Of a stretch of DNA of 64,000 nt, positions 7,642 through 63,271 are shown in pieces. The DNA is taken from the NCBI RefSeq assembly GCF_030867145.1, contig NC_134433.1:13033216-13097215 (forward strand), given 5' to 3'. The position numbers and the translations under genes were made by a program. The DNA is from Opisthocomus hoazin (lineage: Eukaryota > Chordata > Aves > Opisthocomiformes > Opisthocomidae). Numbering within the stretch: the first letter of the stretch is position 1; each line of letters opens with the position of its first letter. The notes beneath the pieces are model-generated. The model searched no databases and was not told where the DNA came from. It was given only the letters and a program-made list of their open reading frames with translations.

Positions 7642-10600
7642 ATGAGATTGCTCCTGTATCTACTCTGCCTAATGAGTGAGTCTTATCTCTATATTTATTT
7701 TATATATATTAGAAAATAAAAGTCTTAGTCCGGAAACAAAGTAATTTCTGGAGACTCAGACTGGTCCTGTAATGTGAGAAAATAAAATTACTCTTATGTA
7801 GAAAGTTCAGGATGTCTGGACTTGTATGGAAAGTCCTTGGTTTGCGATGTATTTTTCTACTAGTTCAGAGAAATTAATGTATTCGAGTGGAGAGACTTTT
7901 ACAGTGTTCATCCTTAGTGAGAGAAAGGCGGCTGCTTGGTGAAATTATACTCTCAAATACAAAGCTAACAAGCTATGTTTGGCCTTTTATAGTTTTTTAT
8001 TTATTTGTCTGTTTGCTTATAGTGAAGTAGGCGAGAGTAGAATGCAGGTGAGGTTTATATTCTTCCCTTTCTAGTGTCATTTTAGATACACCTTGGATTC
8101 AGCAGTAGGTGCTTTCAGAGGTACATTCCCCGCAAGTTTTTGGCTTGTTGATCTCTTAACAAGAGCTCTAGAACATGTGGGATTTTTTAAAAGAAAATTC
8201 AGAAGACCTTTATTTGGGAGTAAGTTTGTGTAAAGTAAAGCATAGGTATGGGTTAGAAGGAATGTTTCCCGAGTCGGAGTCTGTATCCATGTCACTCTGT
8301 CCTGTAGCCTCGTGGGGAGAGTTCTGTCATGAATTTGGCTTTTAGCTGCCCAGAAAGGGCAAGGCCCTGGCACTGCCCCTCCATGAGCTCAAGCGGTGGA
8401 CAACTGCATTGGGGATGTTACTGGCCACTGTTCTAGCAGCTCCACAAATAAACGCTAGTTTCATTCCGCATAATAGAATTTCTGTTTGTTGGTTCCCTTT
8501 TCAAAAGACTCAATACTGTATGTGCCTACTCCATCTATACAGAAAGAATATTATTCTTTAAGTATTCATTTTGTGCCCCCACAGACCTCCTGGCAAGCTT
8601 TACGCTTCCAGTGTGTTTGGGAAAAAAATGTTATTAATTTTATTCTTTTAATGACATGCCCATCAAAGTTCTCTGCAGCTTGCTTTGCTGTGATTTGAGA
8701 TTTAACGTCAAGATTTATGCTCTCCTGCTTTCCTTATTTGGATTTGACTTCTACGTGTTGTATGATGATGTATTATTTCTGCTAATATCTTTCTTCTCAC
8801 GTTTGCCATTACACTAGGTAACTTCCAGCTTTGTAAACATAAATCCTTAATGGATATTCCCACTGAAGTTTCTGATATTTTTTTAAATCTTGACCTTTCT
8901 TGATATGGTTTATGTAAAAATGAGGTGAAATCATTGATGGAGGCTTCTACCCTTATGTGCTTCTGTAGATCTTTTCTATTGCTCTTCTCTGGCAACTTTT
9001 TTTTTCAGTTGTGGGTTTTACTGATGAAGAAGGTAGTGTAGAAAAATGCAGTTGTCCGACCTGGTGGGTCTCGGTTACGTTCTTAGAATGAATCTGATGT
9101 AAACTGTCTGTATAGTTGGCTAATCTGCAACAGACATCTGGGTTTTTTTTCCCCTCAGTTTAAGCATAGCGCACTTAATTTCAGTAACTGAAGTGCTAAA
9201 CCCCCCCTGAGTCATCTGTGTTGGAAATCCCTGTGAGCAGGGAGTCAGGAGCAAAAAATTCAAATAACTTGGCTTTGCAGAGTGCCGGCAGCAGAACTGA
9301 GCGCGGAGCTGAGGAGCCTCTGGTTCCCAGGCCAAGCGCACAGGAAAATTCATAAGAGTGATGTTAGCTCCCTGGCCATGTTTGCTCCTTTTTTTTTTTT
9401 TTGCCTGCTTGAGAACTGTCCCTTACTTCAAAGATGGCTGAACTTTGTTCCAGCATATTTGGAATTCTGGTTTTGTTTTAACGAAGTTTGCTGGAAGCCT
9501 TTGGAAACGTGTGGTATTGTTAGGCTGATATTCTTGCAGTGGAAACATAGACAGATGCCTAGGAGCATCTCCAAGTTAATTTGGGTCTTTTCACTGGTGA
9601 AGTGGGATTTGCAAAACAAGGCAGTAGTTCAGCACGGTCTACCTACGCTCTGAAAGGGATGCGTGCCGTGTGCCTGAAGTACGGGGCGTTTCAGGAAGCA
9701 GAAGCAAAGACTAAAATTTCATGCTGTCTGCACAATTCACATCATTGCTCTTCTTTCACCTGTGCTTTCATAGACAGGCTGGGAAATGACATGGAATTGA
9801 TTTTACTCAGATTCAGCTCTGAGTAAAATTGGAATGAGGAAAGACTCTAGGTGGACACTAGGCCAGAATTTAAGCCCTTGTTAGTACTTCAGTGGTTATA
9901 TTAAACTGTTAGGCTGCGCGTTTAATGCAGGCTCAGCCTACAGCTTCTTAAGTTGGAGTCTGGGCGTTCAGAGCAGAGATTTTGGGCCGGAGTAATTTGT
10001 AAAATTCAGATTTCGTACTTTTCTTTTGTTCTAGTTTCAAACAGGGACAGAGTTTGTAATCGGAGTCACTTGGGCTTGTTCATGAGATTAGTGTGAAGTT
10101 TTCAAAGTTGTTGTGCGATTGACAGAGGTTTGGTTATCCAGTACAGCTCAGTGCTTGCATTTACAGCATTTATCATAGTAGCTTGCTTTTCTTGCATCCT
10201 ACTTTGTGACGTTTTCAGCCTGTCACTTAGAGTCAAATATGTTTATCTTCCCAGCCTGTGCATTTACTGAAGTGTTAACACACTTACAGAAGTCAAGAGC
10301 TGAGGTGTGAACAACAATAAGGGTTGGCTTGCCACAGAGGCTTACAGCTAAAACACCAGTGTCAGCCCCTTTTTTGTGGGCTTCCTTGCAATAAAGCGGT
10401 GCCTTCATGAAAAAAAAGAAGTTACCTTTAGGATGCAAATTCAGTTACAGCTCTGTGAATAATGGGTAGAAGTTTTTTTTTGTTTGATGGCTGTTTTATA
10501 TGTATTTTGAGATGTTATTTGACTTCTAGCAGACCTGCATCCTCATCAGAGTATCCATCACATTTGACACCAATTTACTCCCTGCTGCCAAGCTTTGAGC

Positions 10601-13600
10601 TTTCAGTTAACATCCCACAAAATCTATGTTCTCCTCTTCTTACCAGGTTTATGGCAATGCTATTCTTGTAGGGAACAATCGCTGCTGCTACCTAAACTGC
10701 TTATTCTTTAATCTAATAGGTTTTGGTGTCCTGGTCTGTTGAATATCAGCTTTACAAGAAGCGAATCCACTGGTTCCCCCCTGAAGTGTCATGCCACTTG
10801 CACAAGCCCTGGAGTTTTGTTTCTTCTCCTGCCTAAAGGCAGGCTTGTGAGCTTCAGCTAGTAAGAGTGTTTTGTGATACGCAAGATGGGCTGTCATAAC
10901 AGAACAACAGGACTTGCGTTATTTTGTTTTTCATTAGGCTGGGCAAGAAGATCCTTTGTTAATCTAAATCGGTGAAATCTCCATAGCTTGGTATCTCCCT
11001 CCTGCCAAGTGCTTCTGCTGGCCTAGTGGGCAGGATTCAAGGACAGCTGGCTCAAGAGCCTATTAACTATGACTCTACAGATCACAGTCTGCTCTCATCT
11101 ATTTATTTGTTTTCAGTGGTCAAGTCCATGAGGAGCTTTAATGTTGACACTGGCAAGACGTGGATCACACCACACACAGCCTCTTTGTTGTGGCCCACGG
11201 TTCTTCAGCACTCGGATGGGAACACAACCATGTAAGGAACAGAAGAAAGAAAAATGTACTCAGACTTCCCAGGTCTTTATTAATGCACGTGGCCCGAGGT
11301 CAGATAGCTTCTTGCTTTCTACAACTGTTAGCACAGGGTCCTCTGCCTGGGACCCAGAATCGTTCCTCAGTTCTCAGAGGTAATGAGGAATGCTAGAGCT
11401 TCGTTGGTGTGAGGTGTACATTGTCAGCCCGTGAGTCTTCACGGTGCTTCTCACTTCACCCACAGCTAAGTCGTGGCACTGTGCAGAAAGGATGTCTGCT
11501 CATTTGACCAAATGGCAGAAACAAGCAGTGGGTTTTTTGCAGTACTTCCTGGCATACCACACTGTTTCTGGGGCTGCAGGAGTCACAGCACCCACCAGCT
11601 GTCAAGAGTTATGTTACTGGCTTGGTCTGAAGACCATAAAGAGCTGGAAACTGCTGTATTTTGACTACTGGGTCTGTAGGGGAAGAGCAATGAATGGCTA
11701 GGCTGGTGATTAGGAGACAACCACAAGTGGTTGCTATAGAGATAACCTATATTATGCTGAGCAGATTGCTCAGGCTGTGTAGCAGACACCATATTTTACG
11801 TTTTGGAGTAAAGAAACTTTTCTACCCCCTGAGCAGAAATTGGCTGACTCGGAGAACAATCTCCATTTCATAGAGCAGTGCTGCCCTTTCCCAGTATGGT
11901 GGTTGGACTTTCTCGCTGCACCTCAGGCCTCCCTTTACCTCCAGTATTTTATAGGCAGGTCGCTTCCAGACCTCTTCTTTGGTCTGGGATAACTCTCTTG
12001 ATTTCATAGCTCAGAAAATGGGAAGGATGATGATTTTCAGGAGAAAATAAGCATTTTCCTTTTAGTGGCTGATTGAGCTCAAACCCACACTGGAGTCCAG
12101 TTAATTAAGAGATGTTGTCAGAATAACGGGTGGCCACCCAGGCACACAGATGATTGTTTTGCACTGTGCTGCCCAAGGACTCTGCCTGATTGTGTCACCT
12201 TCCCTATTTTCGACCTTTTTTCTCATTCTACAGGATTTTGGCTACTTCCTCAGCAGACAAGGGGCTGGGCAGGCTGAGGAAGTGCACTGTTTTGCAGGAG
12301 GAGATCCAATGCCAGGAGATACCTCTGCGAGGTACAGTCCCGCATCCCCTTCCCAGTGCTTGCTTTGCCGTGGACACGAGGGTGTGCAGAGGCTGGGTGT
12401 TTCAGAAAGAACCGGGCATGCTGCTGGGTCCCACAGATCAGCACTTCATGGAGAAAAATGCAAACCCACGGTCCCAGTGGTTGGGAGTGATGTGTCTGGA
12501 GGCTGCCAGACCTCTTCTGCCACAGATTAAATCTTCACCTAAACTTTGCTGAAATACAAGGCAAAGTTTTTTGTTTCAAATATGTTCACTACTGCTACAG
12601 TTGCTGATAACATTAACTTGGAGTCCTCCTAGAAGAGCAGGTACAGCTGACCTTAGTAGTGGTAGCCTTTCTCTATATTTATTCTGTCTGCCCAAGGCTG
12701 ACAAGCACCATATCCATTTCAGTTTTGTTCTCCTTCATTCATGCAATTGCTCGTTCAATTTCAGGAAAGATTAAAAGCTCCAAAAACATCCAGGATGGTG
12801 GCATAGCTATTGGCAGGAATTCAGACTGGATTCTGGTAAGGGACTGAAAATATCTGTGGTTGGGAATGACTGTATTTTTCTAAAATGCTGTATATACATT
12901 TTTGCTGGAAATTGCAAATGCACAGACATAACAGAAGGACAAAGGCTGAAAGCTGCTGGCTGGACCCTGGCTGGTTGGAAAGCCAGCTGGTGCATTGCCA
13001 GCCAGGAGGGAAAACTGAGAAGGGCCCTTCTCATCAGCTGAGGACTGCAGTGGACCTTGCGCCTCCCTGCAGTCACCCCCACTCATAGGGAAAGGGAGAA
13101 CTGGCAGAGGAGGCTTAGGAGAGCCATCAATGTGGAGGCTAACCCCTCAGGATGGTGAGCCCTCCAGCCGCACTCTGCTTCAGCGCAGGGCTGAAGTCCT
13201 GGGTAACCTGCTGCAGCAGCGGTCACATCAGGGAAGGTCCTGTTTTACTCTCACTAGGAGGTTTTCAGTGCTGTACAGGGGATGCTGAATGCTCATCAGA
13301 TGGCATCTTCAGTCACCCTCTGTCTACGGCTTTGCTCATCATTCATTGGCCTTCCCCGCCCTCCCCACAGGCTTGCCTGCAGAAGAAGCACCGTCGAGCC
13401 TTCACCACTACTGAGGACATGAATGGAGTCTGTACTCTGCTCACCCCCGACTTGCGCAGCACAGTGTTCCTCAACCTCACCAAGATGGGTATAGGAGCAA
13501 AGCCAATACTGTGCGTTTGCGGAGGGACAGAAATAACAGCACAATGCTCTGCTCTAGCAGCAAGGGCCTTCTGAGTTCCTAACCAGCAAGGTCTATGGCC

Positions 13601-14263
13601 CACTGTGAGAGACTAAAAACAGTTTTGACAAGTATTATACTGACTTCAACAGGGTTACAAGTTTCAGTCTTGAAGACTAGCACACAGCAGCAGGGGTTTT
13701 CTGTTGTGGTGTCCTGTGCATCCAAAAGATCCAGCTCTTAAGCCAGAATTTAGAAAAGCATCAACATTGTTAGTGGACACGTGACAAAATCCACTGGGAT
13801 TTTTAAAATGCCTGGGCATTCAAAGCTGTTGCTTCCCACTTAAACTGGGCTATTGGGCATTTAATCAGGGGAGCAGAGAGCTGGTCTGATTGTCTAGCCT
13901 TGCTCTGCTGCTTGCAGTCACTGCAAAGAAGCAAAGTTTAAATTTGACACCTAGGTGGTCTCATTCCATCTTCAGTTGTCTAACTGCTGTTAACAGCCTG
14001 ATCCTCAGGTCTTCTGTGAGTTGGGGAAGCTGGGTGGAAACAGATCCTGAGTTTCAGGTGCGTTAATAAGAGTATTTTCAAAAAGTAAAGTGTATTTTTT
14101 TCTTACTTTTAAAATTCTCTAGTTGAGACCAAATTAAACAGCATTCCAAGTGAAAACAGCAGAGGCAAGATTACTGACACCAGCAGCTCTGTCGGCACAG
14201 GCAGCACCAGCAGTGCTTGCGGTGAGCTCTTCAGCAGCGCGGGGAGCAACCACATGTGCAAAG
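7642..14263 (+). other. ITGAE: ITGAE exons 1-6: signal peptide and N-terminal propeller part
   Basis: Exons: 7642-7675, 11117-11231, 12234-12331, 12765-12835, 13371-13488, 14123-14263. The start [12 protein letters not shown] gives a hydrophobic core, then a polar VKSMRS before FNVD, which aligns with the mature human N-terminus (AAFNVD). Exon 2 has an NTT sequon; exon 3 aligns with the human segment beginning LLVTSPRT and keeps its Cys; exon 5 encodes [12 protein letters not shown], matching human TGTCSLLGPDLR. Exon 6 is a Ser/Thr/Gly-rich lead-in. Its donor could be at 14222 or 14264; both keep the same phase and differ by 14 codons. The polar end of the signal peptide is unusual, so an alternative first exon remains possible. 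Confidence 0.85.
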
Positions 14264-17200
14264 GTAGGTACAGGACATGAACAAGCATTGCTTCCTTCTG
14301 CATTAGCTGAGTTTGAAGCAGCTTGCATTCATCTGATGAGAGCGAGCTTGGGAGGGAGAAGGTTGAGGTTTTGAAGGTTATTCGTAATGGCAAATTTCAG
14401 TCATTATTGCAGTCTTCATTCACTGAGATTTTTAAAAAATAAAACCTGTCACTACAGCGAAGACCACATCGTCAGCTAGACCTGCTTTCAGAATGGCTGG
14501 ATGGTGCTGGTGCTGTAGTCAAATTTTTGGTTGTTTAATAATATGTCAATGTTCTTGAACCTTTGCTAAATGTCAGGTTGTTTAGGTGTCCCTTCAGTTG
14601 TCCTCTTAAATTTAACTGTATTGACAGAACTGGGAGCAGAGGTTGCTGTCATCCTGGGTGGATCAGAGAACACCAAGCCAGATGATTTCCAAAATGCCAA
14701 GACATCTATCCTCAATATGATGAAGTCAATGTGGCAGAAATGCTCGAAGGTGTGTGAACCTCCTCAGAGTCTCATAATCTGACAGGCAGGATGGATCAGA
14801 GCTCTAATGAAGAATGGAAAGTCTCCTGGTTCACATAATTATTGCTTTTTAAACTTTACAGTGATGCTGGTAATAATACTACATAGTCTAGTGCAAGAGT
14901 TAAATGTTAGTGAGCCAAGGAGGAGGCACAGCTGAAGAGGGAAGTGGAAGAGCTGGGAGTGGGTTTTCATGCCAGAAGCACACAAATCTCTCGGAGCACC
15001 TTGAAACAGTACGCACAAAAATAACGACTGAGGTTTATAAGCCATTACTTTAAATGATTTAAATAAATCTGGGGACAAAGTGAGGCTGAGCCATGTTGTC
15101 ACAAAAGGTCTAGCAAGATACAGGAAACTCAGGCAGAGAAATCATTGTCATGAGCCAAACAAAATGAAGTCAGTTCCTGGAGCTGATCCAGAAGGGATCA
15201 CCAGAATACAAATGGGTGATGGAGACAGAGGGATAAAGACAGTTGATCTACCTGTTACTTGCAATATATGCTTTCTGTGTTTGTGCAGTAAATTTTTTGA
15301 CTAAAGTTGATACTCTGAGGGACTTAGGGATCCTGCCCTAGATCTTGTCTAACCAGCTCTAGCTTTTCCACCTGCTTTCTCCAGATCAGGTTTGCTGTGG
15401 TGCAGCATGGAGCACAGATCCAAACAGAACTGAGTCTGCAAGAAAGCTGCGACAGACTATCTGCTTTCTTCAAAGTCCTAAACATCAAGCAGCAGAGCTC
15501 ACAGACTGACATTGCAGGAACACTACAGCACGTGTTGTGAGTTCACGTGTCTCAAGAAGCTCTGGAACATTCAAGTGATTGCTTGTGTTTTTTGTGCATC
15601 AATCCAGCCCCCTGCGCCTCCTCTCTTCTTTATCTCATACTCTTGAAGCTCTCATCTTTCCAATATTCCTCTTAGTGACAGGCTCTGCCAGCTGAGGCCT
15701 GTGAATGGGTCTGTCTTGGGGACCATCAGGTCAACAAGGAGAAATATCCGAAAGGCAAAGTGTGAAATCCTTCCTGGCTGACACAGGGGCTTCAGAATGA
15801 ATATTTAGTCACTTAGGTCTTGCTTTAAGCATGTGTTCTTTTGTAGACCCAAGGCCTTTCCCATGTTTTTTCACTGATATCTGATTCTGCTGCATCTCTG
15901 GGAGTCATGCTTTCCCTCTTGACTCCATTTCCTTCTCAGTAACATGAGTCTAACAATATTGACCCGCACTGTAAAAATGCCCTGTATGCTACTTGTGAAA
16001 GTGCTTGTGAAGTCAGAGCTACCAGTTGTGGACAGCCAATATCCCTGGAAAGCATAAATCCTTGTGCATGTTTGCCTTGCACATCTGTACTCTTGTGGGC
16101 TGAGAGCTCAATGAACGTCAGCACCCTGCTACTAACTCTGGCATTTCTAGCTTTGCAGATGTGGATTGTCCCGTGAAATATCTCTCAACTTCTGTTTCCA
16201 CAGGGATAAAGTCTTTGATACAAGCCGTGGCTCCAGCCAGACTGATGACAAGATAATCATTGTCATGGCATCTGGGCAAGTGTTTTTGGAAAACCAAAGA
16301 TTGAGAAGCGTGATGAACTCTCTGGAAATGGCTATGGTCAAACTCTATGCTCCTAGGGTGAGTGGGAAGCACCGTCAAAGCCACACTTTTTTGCATCAGA
16401 ACACATACCTCAAGGAGTGATATTTCTGTCCATCCCATGTGTCTGCTCTTATGCTTTAGCAGTGGGTGGAAGAAAAAGTAGTCATGCATTAGACATGCAG
16501 GATGTCCAATCTGAGATGCCCTGACTCCCTGCATTGACTCAGGCCTCCATCTTCTTGATCCCAGAGAGCTGATTTTGGATGAGGTTAAGGAATACATCCT
16601 ACAAACAAAGATGCTTAAGTTGTGTATGTCTTGTGACTCTAGAGGTTTTATTAGTTTGTTGGGTTTTTTTGCAAATAAGGGATTTCTGTGGAATCTAGGA
16701 TCAGGGTTGCTTTACCAGGATTTCAGAAAACTCTATCCCTTTTCAGGGCTTTCAAGTTTTTACTGGCAGTTTGGGAATTTGTTGGTTTTTTTTGTCTGTG
16801 TATGAAACATCTTCAATCTCTTCACCTGATGGCTTTTCTGTCTAGATTGGAGAGTTCATTAGCAACCAGTGGGTCCCAGAAGAGTTGCAGAAAGTTGGAA
16901 GTGACTGGTTTGTGCTGTCCACATATGAAGATTTTGACAGTTTCCTTTCAGAGTTGGAGAGAGAGACTCTGAGTGATGCAGGTAGAAGAAATCTGACACC
17001 TGGCACATATGTCTTCTCTGTAACTTATAGAGTGGATCTGTGATGGTGGGTAGTTTCATTGTTCAAGGAATGTAGATACATCTCCAGATCTTAGCCTGTT
17101 CTTCTAGTCACTTGCACAGCAACATCAAAACAAATAAAAGTGATTCCTGTTACATTAGTTAGGACTCCTCCTCAGCCAACCCACTGGGAGGACAAGAGAT

Positions 17201-20200
17201 CATATTCTGTATCTGTGACCTGCAGCCGTAACATCAGTACAACAAGACAGATGGGCTGCAACTGGGCCTTTACAATACGCACAATCACCACATGTTCAGT
17301 GTTTCTGTTGTGATATGCTTCTGGGTGTGCTCAGAGCAGTTTGTTTCTGTTCAACTGTAGCTCTATTTTTAAGATGGAGTCCTGATTCCCACAGCCTTCA
17401 AAACTCACAAATATTTCCATAGCACCTGTAGTCTTGTGCCTGAAAGCAATATTGACTGCAGGAACGAGGAAGAGTTCAGCTGTCAGGCAGCAAGGCGCAG
17501 GAAGACTGCGTAGGCAATAACGCAAGGTTTTTGTTCACCTTTTGCTTTCTCTCCTACTGCCCTGTCATCTGTGCTCAAACTTGTTTCCTGTTGCAGCTGC
17601 AAATATTCCAACTGAAGCACCAGAGCACAGAAACGCTGATGACAGCGGTGACAGCAAGCTCCCTTCCTGGGTGGAGGAGGACAAAGAGGAGGAGGAGGAA
17701 AATGACTTGGGTACGTGGTGAAGTTTTTTTTGGCAGAATTGTGCCATGGACTGTCATGGACTGACAAAGTCTGGGGGATTGCTGTACCGTGAGCTGTCAG
17801 ACCTGAGCTGTAGCTTACGCTGAAATGACAGCTGAGCAGTCTTGGTGCAGTTCAGTTGCTTGTTTGAGTGAGATTACTTGTGCATTGATCGATAACACTG
17901 GATAAAGAACTTGGTCCTGACAAAGACTGCTGATTGCCTTCTCCTCATTCCTTTACTTTTCATATCCTGGGCAGCTTCTGGGAGAGAGATTGCTTTTATT
18001 CTGGATGGATCGGGGAGCATTGAGCCAGAGGATTTTGAAAGAGCAAAAGCATTCATCCACAAGATGATGAAAACACTGTATGAGAAGTGCTTTGAGGTAC
18101 TCTCTACTCTCTTTCTTTAGCAGGCTAAAGAATGTGCTGTGCTTTATTTAAGCTGCCTCTTCACCAGAATTTGGGACTATGCAGGTTTGTTTCCATTAGG
18201 ATGGAAAAGCATTTCCACAACTTGCATGTATTCTCGACATAATTTTGCTTACGTCTTAGCAGTACGTTCCCAGTCTTGATCCCAAGAACACTGTAGATAT
18301 AAAAAGTTGGATTTGTATGCTCAGAAATCCCTAGCTCTGCTACGCTGCCATGCTTGGAGCCCAGGGAGCACCATGTCTGCTTTCTTGTAAGGTGACAGTC
18401 ATGACTTTCTTCTGGTTTCCTGACCCTATTCCTGTATTGTAATTGGTACCTGCAATCACAGAAGTGCCAGTCAGACTGGCTCTTCAGCCATGCATCTTAC
18501 CAGTCTCCAGTCACGTATTCTGCGTGAAGGAACTCTACTGCTTTCTCCGCTGAGGCTGAGAAGTGTGATCCACACACCAGCTTTAGGAAAGCTTCTAACT
18601 CTCAAATGCTCCAAGCATCAGCATATTTCAACTTGTTCTTTGCATAGCAGAAGGAAGAAACGTTATGTTATGTGTAGTGCAAATACAAAATGCAGAAATG
18701 GTCCCATTATCCAGACTGTCTTTGATAATCAGATCATCATGGAACGGGAGTATTCTAAGTAAAGATAATGGGAAGCAGGGAGCAATGAAGGAACAATTCA
18801 GTAATGTCACAGATATTACCGTGTGAAACCTGCACGTGAGCCAAACACAGCAGGAAAATGCAAGGACTTAAAAACAAATCACTGTTTCCCAAAACAATTT
18901 TTCTTTTGGTACTGGTAGTGGTTTCATTTTCCTCAGCTATAATATACTTACAACGATCTCTTGTGTCTGCACTAGACATATTTAAAAGCCACTTTCTCCT
19001 GAAAAAATTTTCCTTTCTGCGTAGTCTGGCTAATGTTTCTGTTTGGATTTTTGAGCTAATTGTTGCAGAGAACCCTTTTTCTCTGAATCCACAGTTGTCA
19101 CAAGCCAAGTGCTTATCTATTCTTTCCTTCCAGTGCAATTTTGCAGTGGTACAGTACGGATTTGAAATCAGAACTGAGTTCGACCTGCGAGAAAACTGGG
19201 ATCCTCGTGCCACCCTCCAGAAAGTACTTGATATCGTGCAGGTTTGCAACGTGACAAAAACAGCATCTGCCATGCAGCATGTGCTGTAAGTAACAAAGAA
19301 AAGAGCACAAGACATTAAGGAGATGAATTTCTGGGGCGTTTCAGGAGTAAGGAAGAGGGACTTCTATGGACATTCAGGTCATGAAAGCAGTCATTTATCT
19401 GGCAATGGTTGAATGGCAGGCTGCACTACCGGTGGCATGGTTCAGAGCGTTATAAAAGCTAGCTGTCAGTGCCTAATTCTTGGTGTGGGGGTGCTCAGGA
19501 AGCAATATAAAGGCAGGCAGCACTTGGTATTTTTAATATGTGTGAATATGAAAGAAACTGTCTTGCCTCTTTGCTGTGACTGTTAGCTGCAAGCGCATAG
19601 TTCAACAAGTCTCTTCCTTCTATCCCAAAGAGGGAAGCTTAAACTCAAGACTCTTCCCTCTATCCCATGGAGGGAAGCTTCAGCTTTCATCCAAGTTCTT
19701 TGTTTTAATGTTTTACCAGGGATTCTGTCTTCACTGAAAGTCACGGGTCCCGCAAGGATGCAGCCAAGGTCATGATTGTGCTCACAGATGGGGAAATACT
19801 CCTGGATGAAATGAACTTGACAACAGTGATAAATTCACCCAAAATGGCAGGAATTGAGCGTTATGCCATTGGGGTAAGTTGGGAATGTACTTGGATTGTA
19901 TCTTCCTTCCATTTCTTGGCAGCACTGGGGACAGAGAAAAGGAGAAACTGATCCATGCGTGGTTCCAGTAAATAAGGGAAGAGACATGTATAAAATAAGG
20001 AGGTGAAAGAGAAAGTTATGTTATGAACTGGTACTATAATCTGTGTAGCATCTATTACATGCCCTAGTTTGTTCCTTCTGCCACCGACCACATTCAGTGC
20101 CCTGTATCCACTTACTCTCAGACTTTTCAGAACAGAGTAGTGCTTTCAGTAGATCAGACCGTCTCGTTCTTCCTTGTACAAGGTTTAGAAAAATCTTTCT

Positions 20201-23200
20201 AGAATACTGAATCTAGCAAAGTACTTAACCTTAGTCAAGTCTAGCTCCACAAAGTGTGATTTATGTTTCCTTATCCAGGCTATTCTGGAAAATTTCAACG
20301 TGATAAATATAAATGAAAAGGTTTTCTGACCTACCCACCCAAGGACAAAATAGCAGAACCGAGGAATCATTGGTCAGTGCTTGCTAGCGATCGCAGTCCT
20401 CCTGACTGAGGACGAGGCCAAGAATTTAAAGCTACCTTCTAGATGAAGTGCATGCTTAAAATTTTAAGTTTTTCAGAACAAAACTTCTGATATATTCTTA
20501 ACTTGGCTAGCAAGTTAGCCTCTTTGTGTGTTTTTCAACAAGGCTTTGTCCTGAAGTCTGAATTTTGGTTTCAGACATGCTATATATGTCCTCAGATAAT
20601 CTTTCTGCTATCTCTTTTTATTCTTTCAGAACAGGAAAACATTCAATTTTATGATGTCTTGTAACTTGTTGATTTCCAAAATTAATTCTTGGGTGCAACA
20701 ACGGTATATACACAGAACACGGCGCCAGCCAGTTACGTGAAGAGGTTTTGTGAAGGTTTGGCTCCAGGAGACACTGAGCCTGTCCAATTAATTGACTGCC
20801 AAACCAATTGCTATTTCTGAGTTTACACATAGTGGCTGAAGCTGAGGTTTTTACCACAAACTGTTGAATGAAGTAGGTGGGGTAAGGAGACTCTAAAGGC
20901 TGCTTCTTTTGATTGATTTGCGTCCCTTCTGCAGGTGGGAGATGCCTTCAAAAAACCAAAGGCCCTAAATGAATTGCGGCTAATTGCTTCTGGTCCAGAT
21001 GACACTAATGTATTTCAGGTGACCAATTATTCAGCATTAGATGGGCTGCTTTCAACCCTGCAGCAAAGTATTATTGGTATAGAAGGTAAACAGCAACCTT
21101 TCTATTTCTTTAGTACCTTTTGAGAGATAAGGAGAAAGTGGCTTACCCTGTTTCTGTTGCATCCTCAGGTACACAGGGTGATGCTCTGGAATATGAGCTT
21201 GCACAAGCTGGTTTCAGTGTGCAGATCCTGGATAAGGTAAATGTTCTGCATTTAACCCTGCTAAACGGTTGTATGCTGTGCTGCTGCTTCAATACTTGTA
21301 AGGATTCAGGAGGTGTCCCACAAGAAAAGATGGTGGTACCCAAGTGTGAGGCCCATCTAGTCAAATCTCCTTTGCAAGCCACTGCTTGCTTTGAATGTGT
21401 CAGATAAGCAAAAATACCACTTCTATATAGTCAGACAGTAGTGAATTTTATTTTAAGATGGTATTTATCTCGTGTGACTCCTGTTCTACTACTGGATCCT
21501 TTTTATTCCACTGGGCAAAAGAGCTGTCTCCAGTTGACAGCTTTGATTTTGCTGGCATCCGCGTTTCTAATGCACAAGTCAGGGGTTCCATCATGTTGCA
21601 GATAAAATAATTCTGCTCTTTCAGAATCCTCTGGCTTAAAACCTTGGTCCATCCAGACAAGAATGATCTCTGTCCTTGTCGGGAGTGGGAAATAGTGGAT
21701 GCTGAGGAAGCTAATGAACATTCGGCAGCCTTGGCTGCAAGGACAACACTGATCCAGTTTTGCGAAGTGCCTCATGTAGTGAGTGGGGAGATGGGCAGCT
21801 GTTCTCTGATGCTGAGCAGTCACCTTGTCTGTCCTCAATATCTGGCAGGAGCTGGTAGAACTGCCCAAGCTATGGGGTCCAGGAAAGAGTAGCAGGACTC
21901 ATAAGCCAGAAAACATTGCTCCTTACTAAACTGCTCTGCAGAGTGCTAGAGGCAATTGTGCCGTGTTCATCTCTTCTAATTTGCAGTATGTTACTTCTGC
22001 AGCAAGTCTTAATGTTTGGTGCGGTGGGGGCCTTTGACTGGTCTGGTGGAATTCTGCTGTATGATCTGGCAACCAAGACGGCTGTTTTTCTGAATGAATC
22101 TAAAGAAGCAGCTGAAAAAGCAAAATACAGCTACCTAGGTAATCAGTTTACCCTTCTCTCTCAAATGACAGCCTGACAGCAGTTTTGCTTAGTTTGTGTT
22201 TAGTGCAGCATGATGACACTGACAGGATTTACCTGAAGAAGGCCACCCCCTGCAGCGTCTTACTGGATTTTTAATATTTTCTCTAGCAAGGAAAGAGATT
22301 CTCATGAAAACACTCTCTGTCTCCTTTTTTGGGGGAATATACGACTTGTTTTCTCTGATGAGTTATGATGCCTTGTGGTATTATTAACACATACAATTTG
22401 GTTTCACTGTGTAAGAATACTTGCAATGAAGGGCATTTTTGAGAGCTGATAAAGAAAATATTTCCCTTTTTGTGAGTGTCTAGAGAAGAAATAGCTTGTG
22501 AATCATTATTGTTCTTGGCTTGCTGACAAATAAAGCCTTGCTTGTTCACCCCAGTGCTTTGTAGCCTCATGAGCCCTGTATCTGCCGACTCTAGCCTTGG
22601 CTACAAAGTCTTACCAGGTAATGTGAGGTGCTGTGGACTGCTTGTGCTAGCATAATCCTTCTCCCATTACCTCCCTCTTACAGAAGCTCCATAACAGATC
22701 TCTTTTTGCTTTCTATAGAGTATAGTTTTTCCTTCACTTCTCTGAAGGGTCATAAACCTTCCAGCTTGCAGATATAATAATTAAAAAAAAAAAAGTGTGT
22801 ATGTTGGATAATCACTCAGGAAGTATGGCAAATGCTGAGAAAAGTCATAAAGAGTTCAAGCATATTTTTTCAGAGCAGTAATTTATTCAATTACTCTACA
22901 GGCTGCTAAGAGATGAAAACCTCAGCTTTGCTGGCTTTTCTCTCAGAACAGTTACCTGCTATTTCCTAATCAATATTTTTATGATATGTTCTGTAATCAA
23001 AACCATGGGCCACAACAACTAGACATGGTGGGAACTCTTGGATCTCATCGAATACGTAGGTCTATGTCTCAGACCAAACTTTGAGGGCTTTTTCCTTCAG
23101 GCATAGAGTATGGCAGTGATAATGTATGCTATTTTTGCTTCTTATGCGAATGCACCAGGGTACAGTGTGGCAGTGGTACGCACAGAATATGGACCCTTGT

Positions 23201-26200
23201 ACATGGCTGGAGCTCCACGGCACAGCATGAGAGGGAAGGTGTTGGTGTTTCAGGACGGCCGCTTAAAACAAACCCTGCAAGGAGAACAGGTACAGTGCCT
23301 CGCTCACCTGGGCCAGTCAGATCGGGGGGGGGGGGGGGTGGTGGTGTGTGTCAGGTGGGCTGCACGCCTCTCCTTCACTCAAACAGCAGCTGCGTTTTCT
23401 CCTCCAAACACACTTACACTCTTACACAAGCATCTGATTTAGCTAGATGTGGATTACGCAGTCTGTTCACTCCATAATGCTTTGGGAACATCAGAAAAAA
23501 TCATGAAATTTGGACAAAGACTGGGAAAAAATGTAGGTAAACGAAGTGTACTATATTTATGTTCTGTTCTCATGGTTCATGGGGTAAGATTTTGTCAACT
23601 GTGGTATTCTTTTTCCTCTGTCAAACTGTTGAGTAATGATTTTGTTACTGCTAAACTGGTTACAGGATCTGTCCCCAAGGATGGCTGTAATAAAATAAAT
23701 AATAGGAAATGATCCACATATAAGTAGATATGTGATGCTTTGTTCTAAAAATTGCCTTACTGCTGCAAAGGACACCAATTCTACACAGCTATATATAGAG
23801 AATTCCAGTGAAAGAGCTGCTTGTCTTTTTCTGGAGCACAGGTTGGATCTTATTTTGGATCTGAGCTCTGCCCACTTGATGTGAACCATGATGGGGTGAC
23901 AGATCTTCTCCTTGTTGGAGCTCCGTTTTATCACATTCAGGGGGAAGAAGGAAGAGTTTACGTATATCGCCTGGAGACAGAGGTAAAAACACTGGTAGCG
24001 TAAACACTCCGTGTTGGGGATTTTCCAACCATGCCTAAGTAGTGACAAATAAAACATTCCTCCTTTGTGCTCTCACTGAATGTGCTCTCCCTGTATGGTA
24101 GAGGACTGCAGGATGAAGCCAGAGGTCCTCTCTTAGTCGTTAGAATATAAAAGAGAAATAACTAAAGAAATAAAACCGTTCTGTAGCTAAGGTATATTCT
24201 TACCACAATGTGATAAAATCATGTCTTCTTCATCTACATAGGCAACTTGTTGGTGCAGAGCTTGCTCTGCAAGCAGTGTTCTTTGCAGTGCTTGCAGTAA
24301 ACGTGTGCATGGGTAGCTGCGAAAACTTTGCTTCCCAGGACCTGCAGAAAACAAAATGTTTTGTAGGCCCAGCTACAGGATCCGTTACACAATATACAGA
24401 ATATAAGTTATAAGTTAATTGCGTCATTTTGAATGACAAGTGAAATTCAACAGCAGACCAGGAGAAAACCCTCTTCCGTACGCTGCTAAAAGTTGCTCAG
24501 GGCACGCACAGGATGGTTGGAAGCGAAAAACAACAGCCTGGGCATCTGTTTGAATTCAAATAGCGTGCACCCTCTTGTGGCTTATTTCTGTAGTCGGGCG
24601 GAGAAGGTGGGCTGCTTTCTGCTGTGAAACAAGCCGGGGATCAGCTCGATCTGCGAGGGATTTAAGAAAGGCCAGTGCTGCAGTGTGTCCGCTTGCATGG
24701 GGCTGTCCAGAGACACACTGTCTGTGCGAGAATTTGCATGCTCTCGATGCAGAAGGATCAAGCTTTTGTTCCGAGAGTCAACTGTATCTTGAACTTCTTA
24801 TATTGTTTAGGGCTTCATTGTTCATGTTTAAGCATTATAGGTGTGCAGTAAGATTTTGTTTGTTTGTTTTTTGTGAGAGCTACTCATGCTATATTTGCTA
24901 TAAATCGATTTCCTTCTTGGATGTTATTCAGAATGGTTCATTCACCTTGGAAGGACACTTAAACGCGCAGGTGACCTCTCCTGTTGCGAGGTTTGGGTTT
25001 ACTGTGGCTAGCATTGGAGACGTCAATGGGGATGGATATGAGGATATTGCAGTTGGAGCCCCCCTTGAAGATCAGCTTTCCATCAGTTCCTCGTTTGGCA
25101 GCATTTACATCTTCAATGGTGATAAAGACAAGATCAAGAGCTCTTTTTCTCAAGTACGTGTCTTCTTGGGAATTACCTCCACTACCCCACGAGAGGGGAG
25201 AGCTTGTGTTTTTGTAGAAGATGCTAGGAGGAAGGACTTCCACATTTTATTTGCATTGATGGGTGAGAAATTTGCCGATGTCAGGTGGTTTATCTGACTA
25301 CACAGGTTTCTGCAGCAGAGCTGCTCCTTGATTGTAATTATTCACCTGCCTGCTTAGGTCAGGGAGCTGGATTTGGGTGCTGCCTATAGAACAGCATAGC
25401 CTTTTGCAAGCCGGCCCGTCCATTATAGGAAGTTAAGAGCCAGTATTTTGCATCTCATGAGTGTTACAAAATCATCTTTACAGCAGCCTGGTGAAAAGAA
25501 GTGTATTTTCCAAACGGCAAGAGAGATATCCTGGCTTACATTTGTTGATGTTCCCTCCTCTTTTAGAGAGTAAAGGCCTCTGAAATTTCTTCAGGACTGC
25601 AGTATTTCGGTCAATCCATTGATGGTGGCTTTGATTTCACTAATGATGGTCTCCAAGATATTACAGTGGGATCACTGGAGAACGTGATTGTGCTCCGGTA
25701 GGTAATCACTGTAATTTTTTAGTGTGCTGGGGAAATGCTTCAAAGACAAAAATAGAATCTGTGTTGCAAGCACTGTGTAATGATTCTATTTTTAATTCAG
25801 CATCAGAGGGACATTAAAAAATATTTCCCAGTGCTAGAAATTATATGAAATGTAAAGCCTTTAGTTCAAGTTGCAAGGGCTTTTCCCTAAAGCTTTGAAC
25901 AAGTCTAAAGCTTTGAACACGTATGAGAGAGTGACCATGAACTGATCAACAGATCTAGGTCTAAGACCTTGATGTCTGCGATTCAGCACTGATAATGTAG
26001 GTCATTTAGGCAAAAAAATAATTTCTTGACAGAGACCATACTTCATGTTCAATCAGGCATCTGGTAGCTGAGTGACCCGTGGAGTTCACAAAGGCTAAGA
26101 CATGGCAGACGTTTGATTTTGTTCTTGCATTCTGTATTTGAAAAAAAAATTGTAGATAAAGAGAGAATTTGAACAGCTAGATAATGTGTTTATCTAATGG

Positions 26201-29200
26201 AAATATAAACACTGTGTTTAATTCTGAAACTCTAGCCACATTGATGTATTTTGGCTGTCTGTTCATTCAGACTCTTGGGATTTTGTATGTTCTGAATGTT
26301 CCCAGCAGAAACTGGAACTTCTGTAAATAGGCCAGCTTGGACCAGGTGAAATATCATGGAAAAACTGAGCAGTTCTTATTCTTGCTGCCAGGCTTTCTTA
26401 AAACATTTTTCCTGTAATGTTTTGGTTCAAAACTTTTATATTGGATTCTGTTCTTTATCTGTTCTTCACTGACTAGCTCAAGACCAGTTGTCCACTTTCT
26501 CGCCAGCATGAGATTCAACCCTGAGAGAATCCTAATTTTCCAAAATAACAGCATTGTCACAGCAAAACTATGTTTCGATACAATCTCAGCTTTACCAGTG
26601 TCTCAACAAGGTAATAAATGGGAATTGTGGTCAGATTGAAATCTATAGTCCTACACTGTCCTGGGAAACTTGGCACTGAGAACAACCTCTGGTACATCTA
26701 ACAAAGGATTTTGAAAATCTTGCAGTGTTTTCACAGTTATACATTCTCTACACGGTGGACGTAGATGTGAAAATGGCAAAGAAGAGAGTACAGTTTGAAG
26801 ATCAGAACACTACAGCAAGTGGAAAGCTGCTGGTCAGTGAGGGCATGTGCTGTGAGCTGCAGCTTTACACACTGGTAGGTGATGGTCAGACTTACTACAG
26901 CAAGAAGGGTTAAGAGGACAGGATTTTTTACCAGAATCTGCATGATTATGAGTCTTTCTTGAAGTGCAAAAATACTACAGTGGGGGGTTCTCAGTGTTAG
27001 ACTTGCTGAGCACGTTTTACAGCTGAGGCAGGAGATGTGTCACGTGCCATTTTGGTTTGTATTGCTATAAATCAAACTCTCGTCCTTTTGTGTGTACGTG
27101 AAGTATTTCTAATCCTAGAATTGTAGGGGAGGCATGAAGCTTTACAAGATTAAAGCAAATGGAAGGAAACTGTCCTTCATAATGCATAACTGCATCACCA
27201 AACACGTTATCTAGTGGATGTCATGGCAGTCAGATGTATAAAATGATCTAAAAGAAACATTCGACAAGCTTATGGTCCACTGATGGCTATTAAACACAGT
27301 GGCTCAAAGAAAACGTCTGAGTCAGAAGGTTCCTAAATCTGCCAGGTGACAGAAGCTGGACCAGAGATGACGTGTGTGAAGACTTCTGCATTTTAATGCT
27401 CAGATACTTTCTCAACTTCTTGTTTTTCCTTTCTTGTAGCCGTGTGACTTTGACTGTTTTTCCAGCATTTTTCTGAGAGTTAAACACGAGCTTTATAAGG
27501 AAAATGATAACACGGAGTTTGCTGTTCCTGTGCTGGATAGATACCAGCCATCAGAAATACATTTTCAGGTAACAAAATAAAACGATAAGAGACAAAGCAA
27601 AGAGCTTTCTCTCTTTCCAGGATGCAAAGCTTTTACTATGAAAAATGTATATAAGTTGGGGTTTTCTTAGCCTTTGCATGTTGTCTTGTGCCCTCTGCTC
27701 CCTTTCTGGTTATCAGTACTGCCTTCCGAGTGGAGTTTAGGGCCAGGTTTCCCCCAAAGAGATACTTGTGAAAAGAATCTCATCTCTCAGGTCCAACCTC
27801 AGATCTGCTAAAAAATTGCTTTACTTTGTCCATGACATTTCTCCTGTGCCTCTGTGTAAAATGAAATTAGATGCTCCCTGTGAAGAAGGCAGATGGTTTG
27901 TGTGTTTTGTGAAGTATTTTTCAGATACTGGGCACTACATTGGAACTTATATTAAGACTTATAATTTGAATTATGTATTTTGTAGTTACAATTACACAAT
28001 TTTCTCATGAAGTAATTTTTATAATAATGAAAATTATGTATATATATTTATAGTTTATTTTAGTTGCTTGTTTCAAATTGATTTTTGGGAGGCTGCAAAC
28101 GTCTAATAAAGTTAAAGGTTAAGTCTGATATCCAGTCTCCTCTCTTGCAGTTTAGTAGCAGGATTCCTAGCTCTTTTTCACAGTTAGTCTGAAATCCACA
28201 TCACAGCTTCTGAGAAAATTCCACAAAGCTCTATAAAGAGGCAGCTTTTTGCTCCTTAATAGGAGTCTTTACCACAATTCAATATTTAATTAGTGTCCAT
28301 AAAGCATAGGACAGAGAAGTTAGGACATTTAGCACTGAGCAATAATGAACACTAATTACTATAGTCACAGTACTCTTAGGGATGATGATGATGTTGATAG
28401 TACATTTATTTCCTAAGAATAATTAATGAGATTCTTGAGTGTTGGTCAGCATTGCTTGGTACTTATGCACCCAATATCTAATCATTAATTATCATTGAAC
28501 TTCTCCAGAAAAATCAGCCACAGACAGTTGATTTTTATTGGTAAATAAAACTATTGCTAATGGAAGAAACCTCATCTCTACAAAACAGTATGCCTATAAG
28601 CAGGCACAGCATATGAACATACTTATTCAAGAAAAACATATCATCTCTGGAAAAGGAATTAAGATTACTGTCTGTGGCAATCCAGGAGTAAACAACTGGC
28701 ATTTCTTTAACAAGACCTTGTCCCCAGCTGAAAACTTTTCATGTTATTGCTAACAGACCTTCTCCTGGGAGCTGAATTACAAAACATCATCAATTTAGGA
28801 CTGACTTACCACTAGAGGATCTTCTATTTCCAACTTCTCCTTAACTGAGGTCACGGGAATTGTTTTTGTTTTCAGAGAATATATGTGTATATGTAAAGAT
28901 ATTCTGAATCTGCTACTTTAGAAAAGTTAAGACTGTTAAAATTTGACTTGATCTGTGTTTGCTTTCAGTTGCCTTACAAGAAGGACTGCAACAAGACCAT
29001 CTGTACTGCTCGTTTAACTTTGACAAGTCAGATTCAGTGAGTCACAGTAGTTGTATTATCCAGATTTCACATTCAGCATTCGTAAAAAATGTCATCTTTG
29101 TGCATAAGACATTTCCTTCAAATTCTCAGACAAGATTTGCTGACCCTTTGTTTACATTACTATCTGATCCATCCTTCCCGTAACACCACACTCACGCAGT

Positions 29201-32200
29201 GCTGTAACTGTGTGCCTCTATGGGTGTTGCTGGGTTGTTCTAGGTAATCTCAGAGAAAAGACCAAGGTTTAAAGAACTATAGTCATCCTAAAATCACAAT
29301 TCTGGCATTTAATCGTGAACATGTGATTTCGTCTTAGGCTGATGCACAGCATAGCCCTACAGCCAAAGGGTTGCGCAGTTTACGTAGCCTTAGACAAAAC
29401 AGTAGGCATCACTTCATTGTAAAAACTTACCCTGGAGATTCACTGAAAAGTTAATCAAGCAAAACAATGTTTAAAATCTCTCTTGACGTATAACAGAAAT
29501 GATAAAATGTTACATAAAGTTTGGAGATGACTGCCTTCAACATTAAGAAGGAAGTGTTTTCCTACACACCCTGAAAAATATTGAATAATTAATTGGGCAT
29601 TATCCTGTGTGTAAAAGCATTTGGAGAGAGTAATTACCAGAACCAGAATGCTTCAGGCCTCTTATTAAATAACAACCCTTAGAAATTACATGTTGCCCAT
29701 CTCATTTTTCTGTCTGCTTCCAGAAAGGAATTAGTGGTGGGCCACACTAAAAAAGTGACCATGAATGTTTCACTAACAAACAGTGGAGATGACTCGTACA
29801 TGACAACCATGGTCTTGAACTATCCCAAAAACCTACATTTTAAGAAGGTGACTGTTGAGGTAAGATCCTAGAACAACTCTTCAGCTAAGCAGCAGACTGC
29901 TGAAAGAAAACGCAGCGCTGACTGCTATTCATTTACTACCTAAATAAATCTTGAAGTAAGGTCCAGGGAAGGGAAGGAGCATTTCAGTTATTAGGACCAG
30001 AGCCCGAATACTGGATTTATCTGATTTAAGACTCATAAGCTTTTATGGGTCTATTTGTACCTAATTCATTTTGTGGGAGCAGACACAGACTGAGTTGAAT
30101 TTCCCAGTCTGTTTTTATTCAACATTAAAGAGCATTCCTGTTCTGTTGGCAGCCATCCTCTCCTGCTATTCACTGTGGCGAGCCAATACCATTAACTTCT
30201 CTGGTCTTAGCCTGTAACTGCAGAATTGGGCATCCAGTATTCAAGAAGACAACTGTAAGTAGAGATTGTTATTTTCACTTTTTCCCCCTACCTCTAAAGG
30301 ATACTTTGAGTAGCTGCTCTTGCATCCTTTATCTGTGCAATGAGGCCAGAGCCGCTCTTCTCACTAATTCAGCTTAAGGCCTGTGTGTATTTTCTAAAGG
30401 CAAGAGATTATTTTCATATTCTTGCACTTGAGTTAATGTCTAATTTCTCCAGAAAGGAATGATGAGCAGAAAATACATTAGCCATCATGTTTTAACAGTA
30501 TCCTAGTGAGTTAAGGAGTATTTACACAGTAATCAATATTTTGTTATGTCTTTCTTTTCCCTCAAAATAGGCAAAATTTTCAGTGATTTGGCAATTAGGT
30601 GAAAGCATATTCCAAAATAAGTCTGCAATCACCATTAATATCACCAAGTGAGTATTGCTATTTTCACCACAAAATACACTGTGAACTAGAAAGGAAATAT
30701 CAGAATTCCTGGGTGTCCACACTATTTATCGGTCACTGGTTACACAAAACTGTACTTGTTCTTTTCACCCTTTCTAAGCATTTGGACCTGTGTGAAAAAT
30801 CTTTCCTTCCCTTGTGATAATTTTAGCTTTGCTCATACATCATTATTTCAGTAAAAGATGGAGCACCCTTTAAGGTCCTAATTTAAGTGTAGTACATCTT
30901 TAAAACCTTGTGTTTTCTGGAATGGAAAACAGGGTTCTGGCATCATTCTTTAGCAGAGAGAACAGATGAGTAAAATACATAGTTGAGCTCTGTTCCAGGT
31001 AAAGCTTTCACTCCAAATGATTGGGATGAGAACCTATGTTCAGGGTATTTTTCTTGATTAGGTGCTTTCTAATGGGGGGAAGTTACCATTCAGATTCCTT
31101 TCTTGTCACCTTCCTCCTGTTAAAATGTATGGGGACTGAGTAGTACACAGTGTTTTTTAAACAGAGAGCATCTTTAAAAAGGAAATGCAAACTCATCTCT
31201 GAGCACAGACTCATCTCTTAGCACAGTTGAAGACAAAGGTTTCTACTTGAATTTAAAATCCAGTTTTGTGAGGGGTAGAAGCTTTAAATCTTGATTAATG
31301 AAAGCAATACTACGTGTTCACAGATTAGCGTTAGTTTGCAGGGAAACATTTTGACACAATGGCAGCTTTCAGAATCTGTACGAATAAAGGGCTACTCCAA
31401 CACTGCTGTACCATGTCACCAAACGGGCTGGCACCCCTCCTGTCATTAATTACTGCCACTCTGTTTCCATCCCTCCTGTACAGCCAATATTAGCAGTTCT
31501 CAGACCATAGAAATAAAGGACCAAGGCAGGCCGATAATAATGTTGTTTCATCCATCCTTTTTTTTTCAAAAGCATGAATGAAAATAGCACCATTCTGGCT
31601 GAAGAACACATCCTTGATGTCAGATATGCATTCACTGCCATCCTTTCCAAGTAAGTTTTAAGAGTATTCAGTTGTATTGCATTACTTTAGTCAATTAGAG
31701 GAAAAAAGATTGAGAGGATGCCTGGTAAGATTCCAGTCCAATTTCCATCTTAATAATTCCAAGGACTGCAGATTGTCAAGTCACTTTCTGTGGTACTAGA
31801 CAGCAAAAGCAGAGTCTGGAAGACAGAACAATAAAATCATATTGTAGGCAGGGGGTAACTAAAGTCTCCAACTGCTTAGCTTGTAAAAAGCGGACTTCAA
31901 GATAGGTTCAAAGATGCATCCAATTGGCAGACTGCTTATACACGCACTTATATAGACAGACTGCATGGACAGCATTCCAGTTCTAACAAATTTGATGATG
32001 CTACCTCTTAATTACTTAATGCATCTGTGTCATTGGATGTGCTGATTTTTAACAATAATCTAATTCACTTTTCACTTAGTTTGATTTATCGTTCTCTTTA
32101 GACCAGTTTCTTTAATGTATGTGAATGTTAGCGAAGGACTTCTTGAAAACAAAGAATTCAAATTTAATGTAAGTATAGCTTCAAATTTAGGTCATCTGAT

Positions 32201-62322: not shown

Positions 62323-63271
<949 letters not shown>

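Follow-up and report, generated by a model that had tools for sequence, protein, structure and literature searches.

A tandem I-domain duplication in the integrin alpha-E gene of Opisthocomus hoazin, with an upstream copy that has lost metal-site residues

The window analysed here is a 64,000-nucleotide stretch of the Opisthocomus hoazin genome (GCF_030867145.1, contig NC_134433.1) and is free of N over its whole sequence. It carries an intact ITGAE gene (integrin alpha-E; Table 1), which encloses positions 14628-21085 on the plus strand. A single frame runs through all joined ITGAE exons, and the model contains two VWA domains, FG-GAP, integrin alpha Ig 1 and 2, and the cytoplasmic region. 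A whole-chain search against solved integrins placed human alpha-E (8zjf) at the top with 1074 bits, versus 396 for alpha-M, which bears out the gene identity proposed in an earlier sequence-only reading. A haspin kinase open reading frame (33018-35675, minus strand) sits between exons 31 and 32; in human, too, HASPIN is nested inside an ITGAE intron. The 1358 aa of the model plus the 25 aa of a candidate exon outside it make up the 1383 aa given in the sequence-only reading. Between the two parts that align, the window protein has 263 residues versus 42 in human alpha-E, in agreement with the excess of about one domain claimed there.

Table 1. Features of the ITGAE locus (positions in the window)
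Feature	Positions	Strand	Description
ITGAE gene model	7642..37686	+	Splice model; 35 exons joined, ATG to stop, 1358 aa, CGFFKR tail at end
Exon 6	14123..14263	+	Serine-rich 47-aa linker ahead of domain A, phase 1-1
Exon 7	14628..14749	+	Domain A part 1; GGSEN at DGSGS position
Exon 8	15385..15536	+	Domain A part 2; MIDAS Thr retained (T274 of model)
Exon 9	16204..16357	+	Domain A part 3; ASGQ at TDGE position, MIDAS Asp gone
Exon 10	16846..16981	+	Domain A part 4; 15 bp less than exon 15; Ala in place of internal-ligand Glu
Exon 11	17597..17710	+	Acidic linker, 38 aa, phase 1-1; partial alignment to acidic run before human alpha-E I domain
Exon 12	17975..18096	+	Domain B part 1; MIDAS DGSGS
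Exon 13	19134..19285	+	Domain B part 2; MIDAS Thr
Exon 14	19720..19873	+	Domain B part 3; MIDAS Asp within TDGE
Exon 15	20935..21085	+	Domain B part 4; internal-ligand motif at end, exon 16 completes IEGT
Exon 16	21169..21236	+	Re-entry into propeller after domain B
Candidate extra exon	35709..35783	+	Lies between exons 31 and 32, outside joined model; GC-rich, phase 0-0, 25 aa; weak support

Exons 7-10 and 12-15 were confirmed to encode two tandem VWA/I domains, designated A and B. All eight exons are open in the required frame with AG/GT at their borders, both cassettes have the phase series 1-0-2-0-1, and exon lengths are 122/152/154/136 in A and 122/152/154/151 in B. The Pfam VWA profile (PF00092) matched A with 64.1 bits (E 2.4e-17) and B with 128.1 bits (E 5.6e-37), and A was free of stops and frameshifts across 189 codons. 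The two exon sets thus stand as first described from the letters, as does the acidic-linker exon between them (exon 11); the acidic stretch that precedes the I domain of human alpha-E is known as the X domain.

Domain B has all five MIDAS residues (D429, S431, S433, T500, and D533; model numbering) and an internal-ligand I/LEGT motif (IEGT, 610-613). In human alpha-E, the alpha MIDAS is completed by a ligand glutamate, and I-domain E372, which lies in the I/LEGT motif, coordinates the beta-7 MIDAS (PMC10659397). Judged by these residues, the ligand and relay machinery of alpha-E is kept only in B.

Domain A has G203, N207, S307, and A380 where B has D429, S433, D533, and E611. DGSGS has become GGSEN and the TDG aspartate a serine, so that two of five MIDAS residues are kept (S205 and T274) and both aspartates and one serine are gone; no I/LEGT motif is present, the C-terminal end reading ETLSDAA with alanine in the glutamate column. 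The domain is predicted to have the VWA fold (PF00092), and its description as a full I domain holds for its length but not for its MIDAS and internal-ligand residues. Given these losses, A should neither bind ligand via metal nor pass a signal to the beta I domain. The sequence-only reading had gone further and proposed a two-headed chain that would alter ligand reach and the relay of activation to beta-7; two equivalent heads, each binding ligand and relaying to beta-7, are not supported. Two full-length VWA matches would suit a pair of equivalent ligand-binding I domains, but the absence from A of three of five MIDAS ligands, among them both aspartates, and of the internal-ligand glutamate and its motif contradicts metal-dependent binding, and we consider this arrangement very improbable.

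A and B arose by tandem duplication of a four-exon I-domain cassette within ITGAE, as indicated by three exon lengths that are the same, a fourth that is 15 bp apart, and the same phases. They are identical at 70 of 189 residues (exonic DNA, 57%), and identity to human alpha-E is 72/189 residues for A and 129/194 for B. Human alpha-E was the nearest solved chain to both A (114.6 bits, E 4.2e-32) and B (E 2.5e-79), and the E value for A excludes chance for this domain as a whole; the runner-up for A was the collagen VI alpha-3 array, whose several matching domains total 55.5 bits, and the best other integrin was alpha-L (33.8 bits). In a DNA shuffle test (200 shuffles), three of four A/B exon pairs scored beyond all shuffles versus none of five matching introns. 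The alignment of exon 10 with exon 15 was no better than shuffles (53/200 reached its score), so that for this pair shared descent rests on protein alignment, position, and phase. The sole significant blastn match between the A and B regions was exon 7/12, and blastn alone therefore does not separate the other exons from introns. An assembly artefact, or a fragment of a neighbouring gene, is scarcely credible: nothing was found in its favour, A/B DNA that is only 57% identical is no assembly duplicate, tblastn outside the model exons gave only four chance-level matches (E 3.3-8.4), and neither N nor a break in the joined frame occurs.

The duplicated unit is taken as the four I-domain exons; it may instead have comprised five, linker included, and exons 6 and 11 share 38% identity over 99 aligned bases, with a local score reached by 2/200 shuffles. 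In a tree of seven of the eight collected I domains (alpha-L, a 111-residue fragment, was left out), A+B was the best grouping (support 32/0), with B+human alpha-E (p-AU 0.44) and A+human alpha-E (p-AU 0.45) within 0.02 log units; with three near-equal topologies, duplication fits before or after the bird-mammal split alike. Scans for domain A in viral and prokaryotic contig collections gave 6 and 68 pattern matches, respectively, with none confirmed as a homologue, and a phage collection gave no match to the region; these scans are uninformative on other vertebrates.

Domain A has changed fast. It has 66 residues unique to one domain (B, 12; human alpha-E, 10), an end branch of 2.33 versus 0.35 for B, and 15 of the 37 columns that are invariant across the other six I domains. 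Together with the lost metal-site aspartates and internal-ligand glutamate, and with exon 10 DNA that no longer aligns to exon 15, these values would fit a decaying relic, translated or not, that is functionless and being lost. We think this unlikely, since the 189 codons have stayed free of stops and frameshifts even though all five intron pairs have diverged beyond alignment, and since exon lengths and most of the core are retained: out of 52 columns that are hydrophobic in all of six full-length I domains, 43 are hydrophobic in A (versus 36/137 of its other residues), while nine are no longer so and one otherwise invariant isoleucine is a proline. In a neutral simulation, sequences were stop-free in only 1.3-2.2% of runs at the observed amino acid retention (60/126), an only moderately strong result when taken alone. 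The simulation started from B and covered substitutions only, not indels or splice sites. A/B dN/dS, obtained by NG86 and LWL85, was 0.49 (NG86), a value that is an average over the two branches, with dS close to saturation.

Donor sites matched the consensus at 8, 6, 8, and 6 of nine bases in A and at 5, 6, 7, and 7 in B (mean of other exons, 6.7), and the tract before exon 7 has 6/12 pyrimidines, the lowest count among the eight I-domain exons (mean, 9). Phase is 1-1 for the exon 7-10 block and likewise for exons 6 and 11, so that any of them can be skipped in frame. A may therefore be an alternative cassette, with most transcripts skipping exons 7-10 and encoding a single-I alpha-E like that of human, and with A confined to a minor isoform. 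The pyrimidine-poor tract at exon 7 would agree with this, but the A donors and the exon 8-10 tracts do not, as a group, fall below B or the gene mean in strength, and phase symmetry is expected of any clean cassette duplication too. We hold skipping as a tentative possibility; it overlaps with the reading that we prefer, and the odds of the two are not additive.

That preferred reading, which we regard as probable, is that A is a retained, probably translated, folded, metal-free pseudo-I domain ahead of the linker and a working B. The kept frame, splice sites, and most of the hydrophobic core argue for its translation in this form; fast evolution (the unique residues and long branch), the changed core and invariant columns, the unalignable exon 10 DNA, and the pyrimidine-poor tract before exon 7 count against this reading. 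The four I-domain exons were duplicated in tandem inside ITGAE. The downstream copy would have stayed a working I domain with a metal site for an acidic ligand residue and a beta-engaging glutamate, by analogy with human alpha-E; the upstream copy lost two aspartates and one serine of the metal site and the internal-ligand glutamate, retaining frame, exon borders, and most of the core. A most likely folds without metal between the second propeller blade and the acidic linker, and would probably serve as a spacer, regulate B sterically, or offer a surface for metal-independent protein binding; ligand-driven activation would run via B alone. A precedent for a MIDAS-independent I domain is Ciona alpha1I (PMC4237329).

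The integrin I domain has been described as a single insertion that binds ligand and also acts as an internal ligand (PMC10659397). In the open-access literature, judged by title and abstract start among the matches listed (most subscription journals lie outside), no report of a two-I-domain integrin was recognisable, in line with the single-I rule invoked by the sequence-only reading. A bolder and more doubtful proposal is that alpha-E of this lineage is a two-I-domain integrin in which selection rebuilt A into a module that binds or gates independently of metal, and that the duplication perhaps preceded the bird-mammal split. In that case the ancestral chain would have had two domains, and what survives of its linker in human alpha-E would be the acidic X domain. 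An extra, metal-dead copy before a working I domain would be a natural test of head extension without breaking the relay, and a duplicated alpha-E I domain bears on the origin of the alpha-E X domain and on how birds and reptiles hold lymphocytes in epithelia.

Human alpha-E (CD103; 8zjf and 9p97) resembles the window protein in whole-chain homology and in having an acidic run ahead of its I domain, and differs in having one I domain where the window protein has two VWA domains and about 220 extra residues, A included, before the acidic linker. Its I domain is like B in its MIDAS residues and EGT motif (human, MEGT; B, IEGT). Full chains of alpha-M, alpha-X, alpha-L, and alpha-1 each have one I domain inserted in the propeller. 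These domains belong to the VWA fold family, as do A and B, but retain the MIDAS aspartates missing from A; because the alpha-L row is a fragment, the comparison of the internal-ligand glutamate covers alpha-M, alpha-X, and alpha-1. The Ciona alpha1 I domain is reported to bind collagen IX without requiring metal or the MIDAS, and the five MIDAS residues are stated to be conserved, tunicates included (PMC4237329), whereas A has lost three. Collagen VI alpha-3 (9han) has several VWA domains in tandem, as does the window protein, but is an extracellular matrix protein and no integrin, and A matches it at 55.5 bits over several domains versus 114.6 for alpha-E.

The plus strand carries an intact ITGAE gene, in which 35 joined exons run in one frame from the ATG to the stop and encode 1358 residues. 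The joined protein contains two VWA stretches, FG-GAP repeats, two integrin Ig-like domains, and a cytoplasmic region with GFFKR. Human alpha-E (8zjf) matched it along the chain at 1074 bits (alpha-M, 396 bits), upholding the gene assignment made in the sequence-only reading, and the two tandem I domains that it described both matched Pfam VWA; its length of 1383 residues is reached if a candidate exon near the GC-rich 5' end of the haspin open reading frame (ORF) is counted, and the joined model gives 1358. Haspin is nested in ITGAE in the human gene as well. The model protein was searched against the window (matches reported at E < 0.01 or outside exons), and only four matches (E 3.3 to 8.4) fell outside the model exons, giving no sign of a second gene. 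The ion-channel exon that precedes ITGAE on its own strand is presumably TRPV-like.

Coordinates of ITGAE and neighboring features in the window (residue numbers refer to the 1358-residue model)
Feature	Position	Strand	Remarks
Ion-channel gene exon	307-810	+	Weak Pfam Ion_trans match, 22.5 bits (under cut-off 25)
ITGAE, ATG to stop	7642-37686	+	35 exons
ITGAE exon 6	14123-14263	+	Serine-rich linker
ITGAE exon 6 plus first I domain	14123-16981	+	Four cysteines (178, 191, 231, 255)
ITGAE exon 11	17597-17710	+	Acidic linker
Haspin kinase ORF	33018-35675	-	Intact, intronless; in ITGAE intron between exons 31 and 32
Candidate ITGAE exon	35709-35783	+	GC-rich; would contribute 25 residues
EMC6 ORF	62323-62919	-	Pfam EMC6, 88.8 bits; near right end of window

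The first I domain (A; exons 7 to 10 of 122, 152, 154, and 136 bases) and the second (B; exons 12 to 15 of 122, 152, 154, and 151 bases) share the phase series 1-0-2-0-1. Their proteins align over 189 residues with a single five-residue gap (70/189 identical), and their DNA is 57% identical (326/567). Exon and intron pairs were compared by local DNA alignment, with 200 shuffles of each as the reference. Scores above all 200 were obtained for exon pairs 7/12, 8/13, and 9/14 (z, 28.1, 9.3, and 11.3); pair 10/15 did not (53/200 attained its score), and exon 10 is the weakest part of the duplication case. None of the five matching intron pairs aligned above shuffles (17 to 137 of 200 attained the score), a clean control; intron lengths were 635, 667, and 488 in A and 1037, 434, and 1061 in B. 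An assembly duplicate is ruled out by the 57% DNA identity and by introns unalignable beyond shuffles and unequal in length. A and B are the products of a single cassette that was duplicated in tandem within ITGAE long ago. Linker exons 6 and 11 gave a local DNA score attained by 2/200 shuffles and may both descend from a single linker that was duplicated.

Human alpha-E was the nearest solved chain for both domains (B, 268.5 bits; A, 114.6 bits). For A it was followed by a collagen VI alpha-3 array (55.5 bits, several domains taken together), and the next integrin was alpha-L (33.8 bits), which identifies the alpha-E I domain itself as the origin of A. The duplication may have preceded the bird-mammal split, with subsequent loss in the human line, or may be later, with fast evolution of A; A is equidistant from B and human alpha-E (70/189 and 72/189 identical), sites common with human only (12) or B only (10) are roughly balanced, and the I-domain tree makes no choice among placements of the three. 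Unique residues (66 in A, 12 in B) indicate much faster evolution in A. The acidic run preceding the human alpha-E I domain, known as the X domain, aligns with exon 11; conjecturally, this X domain could be leftover linker, should the duplication prove old.

Exons 7 to 10 are, as first read, stop-free in the needed frame (other two plus-strand frames, 1 to 5 stops per exon). Neutral substitution simulated from B, run to about the observed retention (60/126 residues common to B and human), left 1.3 to 2.2% of 4000 runs per setting stop-free; these were substitutions only, and frameshifting indels would lower that share. Six full-length I domains were compared; of the 52 columns at which every one of them is hydrophobic, A is hydrophobic at 43 (elsewhere, 36/137 residues), a retention partly expected from descent alone, and it keeps 15/37 columns invariant in the six. 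Pairwise dN/dS between A and B was 0.49 (NG86), averaged over both branches and at a nearly saturated dS of 1.09. A has donor sites at least as strong as those of B; the pyrimidine tract 5' of exon 7 is the poorest among the eight I-domain exons. Taken together, these results favor a coding and folded A, but one that changes much faster than B. Exon 6, the exon 7 to 10 block, and exon 11 are each phase 1-1, so alternative splicing could remove A without a frameshift.

B has all five residues of the MIDAS metal site (D429, S431, S433, T500, and D533), and its residues 610-613 form the internal-ligand motif, IEGT; A has G203, S205, N207, T274, and S307 and an alanine at the internal-ligand glutamate. 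The five MIDAS residues are described as being conserved even in tunicates (PMC4237329). In human alpha-E, as described in PMC10659397, E-cadherin E31 completes the alpha MIDAS and E372 coordinates the beta-7 MIDAS. Given its losses, A should be capable of neither ligand-glutamate binding via MIDAS nor beta-7 MIDAS engagement. The proposed two-headed chain is thus supported as to two VWA domains but not as to two equivalent heads. N-glycosylation sequons number zero in A and three in B.

By analogy with human alpha-E, B would be seated on the propeller, bind ligand, and engage beta-7. A would be a metal-free module beside or above B, tethered by the exon 6 and exon 11 linkers, and might act as a spacer, as a steric gate, or as a surface that binds independently of MIDAS. 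Ciona alpha1I is a precedent for such a surface, and one lamprey I domain is described as lacking the MIDAS threonine (PMC4237329).
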